The position numbers were made by a program, and so were the translations under genes. Shown here piece by piece: positions 14,381 to 18,220 of a stretch of 64,000 bases of DNA; the stretch's first letter is position 1; every line of letters begins with the position of its first letter. The stretch covers positions 3,162,001-3,226,000 of the forward strand of contig NZ_CP099490.1 of the NCBI RefSeq assembly GCF_023923205.1. The letters run 5' to 3'. Below the pieces are notes generated by a model. It searched no databases. It was not told the DNA's origin and saw only the letters and a program-made list of their open reading frames with translations. The DNA is from Ornithinimicrobium cryptoxanthini (GTDB taxonomy: Bacteria > Actinomycetota > Actinomycetes > Actinomycetales > Dermatophilaceae).

Positions 14381-15229
14381 TCAGCTGCGTGCGGCTACCG
14401 CAGCGTCGTAGAGCGCCTTCACAGACAGGCCGGTCCGGCTGGCGACCTCGCGGCATACGTCCTTGAGCCGCTCTCCTGCAGCAGCCCGGCGCAGGATCTC
14501 CGGCAGCACGTCTGCGGCCTCGACGGCAGGGCCAGCAGCCGGGTCGAGCCCGGAGACGACCACCGTGACCTCCCCCCGGACCCCGTCGGCCGCCCACTCC
14601 GCCAGCTCCGCCAGCCCACCGCGGCGGACCTCCTCGTAGGTCTTGGTGAGCTCGCGGCAGACGGCCGCCGGCCGGTCCTCACCCAGCACGGTCGCCATGG
14701 ACGTCAGGGTCGCTGCCAGCCGGTGGGGGGCCTCGAAGAAGACCATCGTGCGCGGTTCGCTGGCCAGCTGCGCCAGCGCCCGCTCCCGCTCGCCCGTCCT
14801 GCGCGGCAGGAACCCTTCGAAGCAGAACCGGTCGACCGGCAGACCCGAGACCGCCAGCGCCATCAGCACCGCCGACGGACCTGGCACACACGTGACCGGC
14901 AGGTCAGCGGCCACACACGCACTGACGAGGCGATAGCCAGGATCGGACACCGACGGCATGCCCGCGTCGGTCACCAGCAGCAGTCGCTGACCTCCGGCGA
15001 TGCGCGCGACAAGGTCGGGGGTGCGGGCGGCCTCGTTGTGCTCGTGATAGCTGAGCACCTCGCCCCCGACGCTCACGCCCAGCCGGTCGGTGAGCCGACG
15101 CAGCCGCCGGGTGTCCTCGGCCGCGACGACGTCGGCGCCCACCAGCTCCTCGAGCAGGCGCGGTGAGGCGTCGCGGGAGTCGCCGATGGGTGTGGCGGCC
15201 AGGACCAGGGCCGCACGCTCGCGCGGCAC
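14381..15229 (-). CDS. rsmI: 16S rRNA (cytidine(1402)-2'-O)-methyltransferase RsmI
   Basis: This 282-aa SAM-dependent methyltransferase modifies the ribose of C1402 in the ribosomal decoding centre. Family motifs are ATPIGD (about residue 11), AEDTRRLRRL, YHEHNE, VTDAGMPSVSDPG and the SAM-site stretch VPGPSAVLMALAVSGLP. The GTG at 15229 is chosen because GGAGGG lies about 6 nt upstream and the homologous region begins right after it. The open frame extends a further 99 codons upstream without homology. It starts 24 nt after the sdhB stop and may be cotranscribed with sdhCAB. In related actinomycetes rsmI is usually next to pmt; here sdhCAB lies between. Confidence 0.93.
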   Translation of the reverse strand: MPRERAALVLAATPIGDSRDASPRLLEELVGADVVAAEDTRRLRRLTDRLGVSVGGEVLSYHEHNEAARTPDLVARIAGGQRLLLVTDAGMPSVSDPGYRLVSACVAADLPVTCVPGPSAVLMALAVSGLPVDRFCFEGFLPRRTGERERALAQLASEPRTMVFFEAPHRLAATLTSMATVLGEDRPAAVCRELTKTYEEVRRGGLAELAEWAADGVRGEVTVVVSGLDPAAGPAVEAADVLPEILRRAAAGERLKDVCREVASRTGLSVKALYDAAVAARS

Positions 15230-15252
15230 TGGCGACCCTCCGTGCTCCTCGA

Positions 15253-15996
15253 TCAGCGGCCGTGCCGCAGGGAGCGCAGCAGGTCGCCGTTCATCTGCGA
15301 GATGACGTTGAGCGGGATGCCCTTGGGACAGGCACGCGTGCACTCCCCGAGGTTGGTGCACCCGCCGAAGCCCTCCGCGTCGTGCTGCGCGCTCATCGAC
15401 TGCACGCGCGCGTCCCGCTCGGGCTGTCCCTGTGGGAACTCGCCGAGGTGGGTGATCTTGGCACCCATGAAAAGGCTCGCCGAGCCGTTGGGGCAGGCGG
15501 CGACACAAGCACCGCAGCTGATGCACTCGGCGGCCATGAAGGCGCGGTCGGCCTGGTCCTTGGGGACGGGGGTGGCGTGCGCGTCGGGGGCCGAGCCGGT
15601 GTTGGCCGAGATGTAGCCGCCCGACTGGATGATCCGGTCGAACGCACCGCGGTCAACGACCAGGTCCTTGATGACAGGGAACGCGTCGGCGCGCCAGGGC
15701 TCGATCACGATCTCGTCACCGTCGCGGAACGAGCGCATGTGCAGCTGGCACGTGGTGGTCCGCTCCGGCCCGTGGGCCTCACCATTGATCATCACGCCAC
15801 ACGTGCCGCAGATGCCCTCGCGACAGTCGCTGTCGAAGGCGACCGGCTCCTCGCCCTCAGCGATGAGGCCCTCGTTGAGGACGTCCAGCATCTCCAGGAA
15901 GGACATGTCGTCGGACACGCCCTCGATGGGATACGTGGCCATGCCGCCCTTGTCGCTCGGGCCGCTCTGCCGCCAGATCTTCAGAGTGAGGTTCAT
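15253..15996 (-). CDS. sdhB: succinate dehydrogenase iron-sulfur subunit
   Basis: This 247-aa SdhB carries electrons from the SdhA flavin to the membrane cytochrome b. The 2Fe-2S ligands are in CREGICGTC, and the 4Fe-4S ([11 protein letters not shown]) and 3Fe-4S ([14 protein letters not shown]) motifs are near the C-terminus. The start codon is the last ATG of a 62-bp tandem array and overlaps a 21-codon upstream frame as ATGA, so translation may depend on coupling. The only Shine-Dalgarno-like stretch is GCGGGGG 5 nt before the ATG. It is the third gene of sdhC-sdhA-sdhB. Confidence 0.96.
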
Positions 15997-16182
15997 CGGG
16001 GCCCCCGCGAAGTATCGGAGTGAGGAACGAACGTAGAACTTTGTGGGGTGATCTTCATCGGGGCCCCCGCGAAGTATCGGAGTGAGGAACGAACGTAGAA
16101 CTTTGTGGGGTGATCTTCATCGGGGCCCCCGCGAAGTATCGGAGTGAGGAACGAACGTAGAACTTTGTGGGGTGATCTTCAT
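15993..16182 (-). other. three chained identical 21-codon ORFs upstream of sdhB
   Basis: Frames starting at ATG 16182, 16120 and 16058 each encode the same 21-residue peptide beginning MKITPQSS and ending SRGPR. Each stop TGA overlaps the next ATG (ATGA), and the last overlaps the sdhB start at 15996. This follows directly from the 62-bp unit length, which is 20 codons plus 2 bases. Whether they are translated is not known. If they are, sdhB would be reached by serial coupled reinitiation. Confidence 0.5.
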
Positions 16183-16220
16183 CGGGGCCCCCGCAAAGTA
16201 TCGGAGTGAGGAACGAACGT
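15994..16220 (-). repeat. 62-bp tandem repeat, 3.7 copies, between sdhA and sdhB
   Basis: Units lie at 15994-16055, 16056-16117 and 16118-16179, with a 41-bp partial unit at 16180-16220. The full units are identical. The partial copy, nearest sdhA, differs by one base (GCAAAG for GCGAAG). The sdhB start codon is the end of the sdhB-proximal unit. Perfect identity indicates recent expansion or a variable-number repeat. Confidence 0.95.
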
Positions 16221-16237
16221 CGGACGTGCTGGGCTGG

Positions 16238-18220
<1,983 letters not shown>

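Follow-up and report, generated by a model that had tools for sequence, protein, structure and literature searches.

A tandem array of a probably mobile, MIRU-like element between sdhA and sdhB in Ornithinimicrobium cryptoxanthini

The tandem array that separates sdhA from sdhB in the window (the whole 64,000-nucleotide stretch of Ornithinimicrobium cryptoxanthini DNA that was analyzed) is very probably an amplified copy of a mobile cassette that inserts precisely at NTGA overlaps, preserving translational coupling. We call it MIRU-like by analogy with the mycobacterial interspersed repetitive units (MIRU), reportedly the subject of Supply et al. 1997 (reference 77 of PMC12548453). The family to which the array belongs, the positions that it occupies, its empty and filled sites, and a reading phase that is kept while the peptide changes are all apparent in the DNA itself. 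The array is real, and the view that the system is an apparently separate, multi-genus family of NTGA-targeted relay elements is well supported.

All of the genes, units, and mini-ORFs of this junction lie on the minus strand of the window. Upstream, sdhA (16238-18220) encodes an SdhA/FrdA flavoprotein of 660 aa and is 91 to 94% identical to its six closest relatives (C-terminal part compared); downstream, sdhB (15253-15996) encodes the iron-sulfur subunit of 247 aa, which has its nearest named relatives in Ornithinimicrobium species. TRF analysis placed a period-62 array at 15992-16220, with 3.7 copies, 99% matches, and a score of 451, versus 103 for the runner-up among the window's arrays. 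Three identical 62-base units are found at 15997-16058, 16059-16120, and 16121-16182, as the sequence-only reading had stated, but the 41-bp partial unit that it placed beside them is a whole, diverged copy of 59 bases proximal to sdhA (16183-16241), which agrees with the 62-base unit at 49 of 59 positions in an ungapped alignment anchored at the 3' end. On the coding strand sdhA ends AAG TGA, and the GTG that overlaps this TGA (16238-16240) opens mini-ORF 1 (16179-16241, 20 codons), which is the diverged copy and matches the core model with 45.9 bits. Mini-ORF 2 (16117-16182; element copy 2, unit 16121-16182; 78.7 bits), mini-ORF 3 (16055-16120; copy 3, unit 16059-16120; also a core-model match), and mini-ORF 4 (15993-16058; copy 4, unit 15997-16058) each start with ATG and have 21 codons. 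In the last copy, the conserved core of 54 nt occupies 15997-16050, as defined by alignment A2, model R1, the match in its own genome, and pair counts. Every mini-ORF ends in a TGA that overlaps the following start by four bases, the last one overlapping the ATG of sdhB. The earlier arithmetic of 20 codons plus 2 bases per unit was right, and the chain of TGA/ATG-coupled ORFs ending on the sdhB ATG is confirmed, with a phase that fits the genes. Its three 21-codon ORFs also stand, but the first link, the GTG over the sdhA TGA, had been missed; the chain from sdhA to sdhB comprises four mini-ORFs (20, 21, 21, and 21 codons) and five NTGA stop/start junctions, sdhA included. Because copies 2 to 4 are identical, the amplification appears recent, in agreement with the same reading.

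The element is dispersed. R1, a model restricted to the 54-nt core and excluding the flanking sequence, was run on 186 genomes from the window's GTDB family and matched 71 of them, in 26 of 53 genera. It gave at least 26 to 31 matches in each of nine family genomes, with the best 31 or fewer candidates per genome being scored. The mean column identity of the core alignment (A2) was 90%. Close relatives of the unit occur in other genera, at sdhA-sdhB and at many further junctions, and the array at sdhB is one locus of a dispersed family rather than an invention of that site. Within the window's own genome, four R1 matches were obtained from the best 150 of 2290 first-look candidates, all of them at sdhAB. 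The element was found in 19 of 297 genomes of an order-wide sample and in 18 of 394 genomes of a class-wide sample, both of which include members of the family; distant relatives have their ends in common and differ in the middle, with cores of 38 to 77 nt. From the matches listed, rather than from every copy, we collected 135 distinct arrays, leaving out the rows G143 C96 and G031 C1 and dropping arrays 60 bases or less from a locus end, matches below 14 bits, and duplicates. Among these, 114 arrays were single-copy, 14 had two copies, six had three, and one had four; the last is the window's array, the longest of the collection.

A same-strand gene stop lay no more than a few bases from the 5' edge of 82 of the 135 arrays and a start codon at the 3' edge of 54, with both present in 41 arrays and neither edge at a gene end in 40. 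The TGA ended one base before the core in 34 arrays and four bases before it in 18, and ATG directly followed the core in 33. Both flanks were oriented along the element (++) in 51 arrays versus 10 scored --, where the coding strand comes from a simple codon-usage score that mislabels some flanks (11 arrays with both edges at genes were scored +-). The full chain of NTGA, mini-ORF, and NTGA ran through one to four copies in 35 of the 41 two-sided arrays; two more had a last stop overlapping the start by one base, and four failed. At two loci (L164 and L288) the core is one base longer, which is offset by two bases 3' of it. The 41 arrays fall into 25 gene-pair types, including sdhA-sdhB, ruvC-ruvA, dnaK-grpE, zwf-opcA, nuoE-nuoF, nirB-nirD, pyrR-pyrB, pup-prcB, hutF-hutI, and livH-livM (names being our reading of the translations). 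Some of the arrays are orthologous, and the 25 gene-pair clusters are the better sample size; at least one intact chain was present in 22 of them by hand count (binomial P ~2e-8 at a chance of 1/3, ignoring remaining dependence). Nineteen of the two-sided arrays came from a query that included the flanking ATG, which favors coupled sites; the other 22 were found with the core model, which is blind to the flanks, and a hand count gives an intact chain in 18 of them. The chain is also intact in 12 of 19 relatives that belong to another family or differ in core length, the core being read in different frames (MNHPTKF..., MSSPHDV..., and MSTPRSS...), these 19 being drawn from 40 fetched distant loci, of which 21 were left out as seemingly located elsewhere. 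The phase is evidently kept where the sequence has changed. The peptide, by contrast, is not the conserved feature: the coupled copies (40 distinct cores) have 131 nonsynonymous versus 55 synonymous codon changes against the consensus and nearly equal variation across codon positions (0.31, 0.32, and 0.39 bits). A conserved peptide is ruled out by these codon changes together with the differing frames among relatives. As a separate observation, the element frame at L364, L371, and L317 runs without a stop into the downstream gene, whose product is thereby extended at the N terminus by element-derived sequence.

Sister species differ in copy number at the ruvC-ruvA junction. In three species of genus g74, each represented by one genome, this junction carries no copy (G206), one copy (G205), and three copies in 62-base units (G207). 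It reads ...CG-ATGA-TT... in G206 and ...CG-ATGA-cc...ccccg-ATGA-TT... in G205, and ATGA is present at every junction in all three. Of 27 other ruvA loci, 23 have -4 or -1 overlaps like that of G206, and four (L342, L356, L360, and L361) have longer gaps without the window's element. The empty and filled sites at ruvC-ruvA and at sdhA-sdhB point to insertion at start/stop overlaps, from which we infer that the element moves.

At sdhA-sdhB itself, a plain GTGA (-4) overlap was found in 24 of 30 genus-set loci, a count that includes G003 (L012), where the sequence has GTGA and the "gap 205" assigned to L012 and L039 is a parsing effect. Spacers of 52 to 241 bases were present in the other six, namely, those of the window's genome (G000), G018, G008, G023, G019, and G010. 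By hand count, 39 of 80 named loci overlap by four bases and 10 by one, 16 have 2 to 26 bases between the genes, and 15 have 41 to 109; these loci derive partly from the same genomes as the genus set, and L039 was counted as an overlap. Species closely related to that of the window have zero or one link at sdhAB. In a tree of 56 SdhA+SdhB rows, from which four named loci repeating genus-set genomes were left out, species with and without a spacer are mixed in the unresolved Terrabacter group. The plain GTGA overlap of G006 (L009) is nested among spacer-bearing genomes, and its grouping with the window has 89/69 support. The spacer has evidently been gained repeatedly, lost, or both, and G006 is a possible case of precise loss of the element.

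Among the long spacers between sdhA and sdhB, 18 were submitted and 17 parsed (all but L094), and 15 of the 17 have an unbroken chain. The chain is kept in the G010 and G019 spacers, where the core model finds no copy, and in unrelated Nocardioides spacers. Nocardioides soli (L049) has TAATGAAGG at this junction versus TAATGA-67 nt-ATGAAGG in Nocardioides sp. YIM 152315 (L054), its sister in the SdhA+SdhB tree; the two form a second pair of empty and filled sites. The L054 spacer gave, in 16 genomes searched, one match in its own genome and one at 74% identity elsewhere in another Nocardioides, and the 79-bp spacer of L062 gave, in nine genomes searched, four matches in three genomes, one of the four away from sdhAB. 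Dispersal of these two spacers is little supported. The spacers of L062, L102, and L094 (79 bp) and of L105 and L112 (73 bp), all from Nocardioides or other Nocardioidaceae, are unrelated in sequence to the window's element and keep an unbroken GTG mini-ORF relay of 28 and 26 codons (L094 was not parsed); they may represent a second kind of relay element. Further observations concern the sdhAB loci. In Ornithinimicrobium sp. CNJ-824 (L012/L039), the sdhA alignment ends early and the remainder is in another frame, suggesting that sdhA may carry a frameshift in this assembly. The contigs DVLP01000235.1 ("Candidatus Avipropionibacterium"; L037) and QEUR01000007.1 ("Acidobacteria"; L041) carry sdhAB of the Ornithinimicrobium group, according to the tree and an 83% SdhB match, respectively, and are likely to be misbinned or misnamed MAG contigs.

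The element carries NTGA at its 5' edge and again at its 3' edge, the second following the first at a distance of 3n+2 bases. Once it is inserted, the gene before it would keep its TGA and the gene after it its own start codon. Ribosomes ending the upstream gene would restart at the overlapping NTG, translate a mini-ORF of some 20 codons, terminate at its TGA, and begin again at the downstream gene, so that the mini-ORFs would be translated and SdhB synthesis would depend on the relay; extra copies would simply be more links. The element end, GAGG/GGGG-nCCCCG-ATG, could act as a Shine-Dalgarno sequence at normal spacing. In the window a GGGG tract (GAGG in other copies) lies 6 nt before the sdhB ATG, and this purine tract may aid reinitiation downstream. 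The tract can pair with the element's own 5' CCCC arm, and passage of ribosomes might expose it; this arm-pairing step is a guess, because the covariation is modest, the alignment folds differently, and four of five single folds are no better than those of shuffled sequences. Since the relay would preserve coupling, insertion into an operon could be nearly harmless. Units may then be multiplied in tandem, either through recombination between them or through slippage.

Rather than being a tolerated cassette, the array could be under selection as a means of adjusting the level of SdhB to that of SdhA, with some ribosomes lost at each link; tuning by copy number had been suggested in the sequence-only reading. 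Four serial reinitiations are, on general grounds, expected to cost output, the window's array is the longest of the 135, its copies 2 to 4 are identical, and copy number differs among species at ruvC-ruvA, all of which would fit such a device. However, the same element lies between 25 gene-pair types, 114 of the 135 arrays are single-copy, closely related species have zero or one link at sdhAB, and SdhA and SdhB are needed in a 1:1 ratio. We regard this explanation as unlikely; tuning of SdhB by copy number is possible but unsupported, and the range of gene pairs suits a tolerated cassette better.

The core could also be conserved as a regulatory site acting in cis (an RNA, a promoter, or a binding site for a protein), its place between genes being incidental. 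Strong nucleotide conservation is indeed seen in alignment A2. The core contains inverted arms (CCCCaCAAAG / CTTcGcGGGG), the 10 pairs of which are paired in 91% of cells, with changes on both sides in two of the 10 pairs, and this limited covariation also fits a structured site. The alignment fold, however, differs from the arms and has no covarying pair, and in single folds four of five copies were no better than shuffles, the fifth (L159) being somewhat better in another fold; an RNA hairpin is a weak candidate for the main function. No Rfam match at E ≤ 1 was found in 15000-16600, ruling out a known RNA family there, and a scan of 15900-16350 for sigma-70-type promoter-like sites (other promoter types being outside its scope) and for terminator-like sites found neither. 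Promoter activity has been reported for the region between senX3 and regX3, where tandem MIRU units of 77 and 53 bp are located (PMC4213456). The many gene-pair types and the relay phase kept despite changed sequence nevertheless make a cis-regulatory site improbable as the basis of the array.

Two other origins are very improbable. Slippage at the locus itself could have duplicated the original spacer of sdhA and sdhB without the help of a mobile element, leaving identical tandem copies at one locus of this genome (best 150 of 2290 candidates scored), but the sequence is dispersed over many loci in 26 genera and the orthologous junctions of sister species are plain overlaps. A duplication private to sdhB is ruled out by the dispersal of the unit over loci and genera, although slippage may account for the step from one copy to four. 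The second origin is a REP- or IS200/IS605-like element that would owe its mobility to a Y1 (HUH) single-strand transposase targeting NTGA. REP/RAYT elements and IS200/IS605-derived repeats are short, dispersed, and oriented and have inverted arms, and the window's family resembles them in these respects, including a fixed orientation to a tetranucleotide and the occurrence of tandem arrays; it differs in lying at NTGA junctions with an ORF phase. Y1 transposases are the enzymes of the REP and IS200/IS605 elements. A search for Y1_Tnp (PF01797, E ≤ 1e-5) was positive in four of the 186 family genomes and in none of the 71 element carriers, as compared with five of 14 control genomes, and a Y1 partner was rejected on this basis. 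Spread on plasmids or phages was likewise rejected, a two-unit, 124-base piece of L159 having no match in collections of either at E ≤ 0.01. An assembly artefact, which identical copies could suggest, is extremely improbable, since arrays with periods of 59 to 63 bp occur at other loci of other genomes, the assembly is a single 3.77-Mb contig, and the chain ends fit the genes exactly.

Insertion of a mobile cassette is our preferred explanation, and several observations weigh against it. At the RNA level the inverted arms are unremarkable, whether judged by the folds, by the alignment fold, or by covariation; many copies lie away from NTGA junctions, including the 40 arrays with neither edge at a gene end, and about half of the fetched distant relatives (21 of 40) seem to be located elsewhere; Y1_Tnp was found in none of the carriers; the plain overlap of G006 within a spacer-bearing clade implies losses or repeated gains; and the window's genome has one locus among the candidates scored.

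The closest comparison is with MIRU. These are described as repeats of 46 to 101 bp at 41 loci of one strain, used in strain typing of mycobacteria (PMC3914561), and, in a review, as apparently mobile sequences that insert at start codons and contain an ORF whose coupling to the gene has a spacing of -4 (PMC12548453). Like MIRU, the window's family is a short, dispersed, intergenic repeat that is tandem at some loci (59/62-bp units here; two to four copies in 21 of 135 arrays), has an internal ORF overlapping the flanking stop and start at -4 (35 of 41 two-sided arrays and that of the window), and appears to insert at start/stop overlaps, as its empty and filled sites suggest. In contrast to MIRU, it occurs in a different set of hosts, drawn from the GTDB family of the window and from further families in the same class, and has a 54-nt core with inverted arms in 59/62-bp units, with relatives' cores of 38 to 77 nt; MIRU are, to our knowledge, without dyad symmetry. 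We use the term MIRU-like, and not MIRU, with reference to architecture and apparent behavior. Plain NTGA (-4) coupling has the same stop/start geometry as each end of the element and corresponds to its empty-site state, whereas here an inserted relay ORF, present up to four times, parts the two genes. Titles and abstract openings, which made up most of the literature consulted on such elements, contained no recognized description of the present family in these genera. Insertion of the MIRU type into coupled genes is already described for mycobacteria (PMC12548453); the apparently separate family studied here shows clean empty and filled sites, and sister species with zero, one, and three copies, in housekeeping operons of other actinomycete genera. 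Of more interest than the tuning of SdhB is this multi-genus system with its empty, single, and triple states, which makes two questions directly testable: how such elements enter NTGA sites and whether ribosomes are relayed through serial mini-ORFs. Annotators should bear in mind that a short ORF at a junction of this kind may be a relay frame with an unconserved peptide.

A broader scheme can be offered tentatively, and we hold it to be somewhat less probable than its negation. The elements could form a single superfamily of mobile coupling cassettes extending across the class Actinomycetes, with common end motifs (CACCCCACgAAgt ... CgGGGACCCCG), free middles (cores of 38 to 77 nt), and NTGA targeting. 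Selection would keep the relay phase only, decayed copies would become permanent mini-genes or N-terminal extensions, and tandem gain and loss would provide reversible coupling steps for essential enzyme subunits. Separately, relatives in G407 and G251, which belong to another family (L307-L315), and in G158 and G160 (L270, L273, L274, L283, and L285) have the same ends with a longer 3' tail. Their surroundings are of another kind, often with a CTAG or CTA motif close by and not an NTGA overlap, and the module may there be part of a mobile element of a different type.
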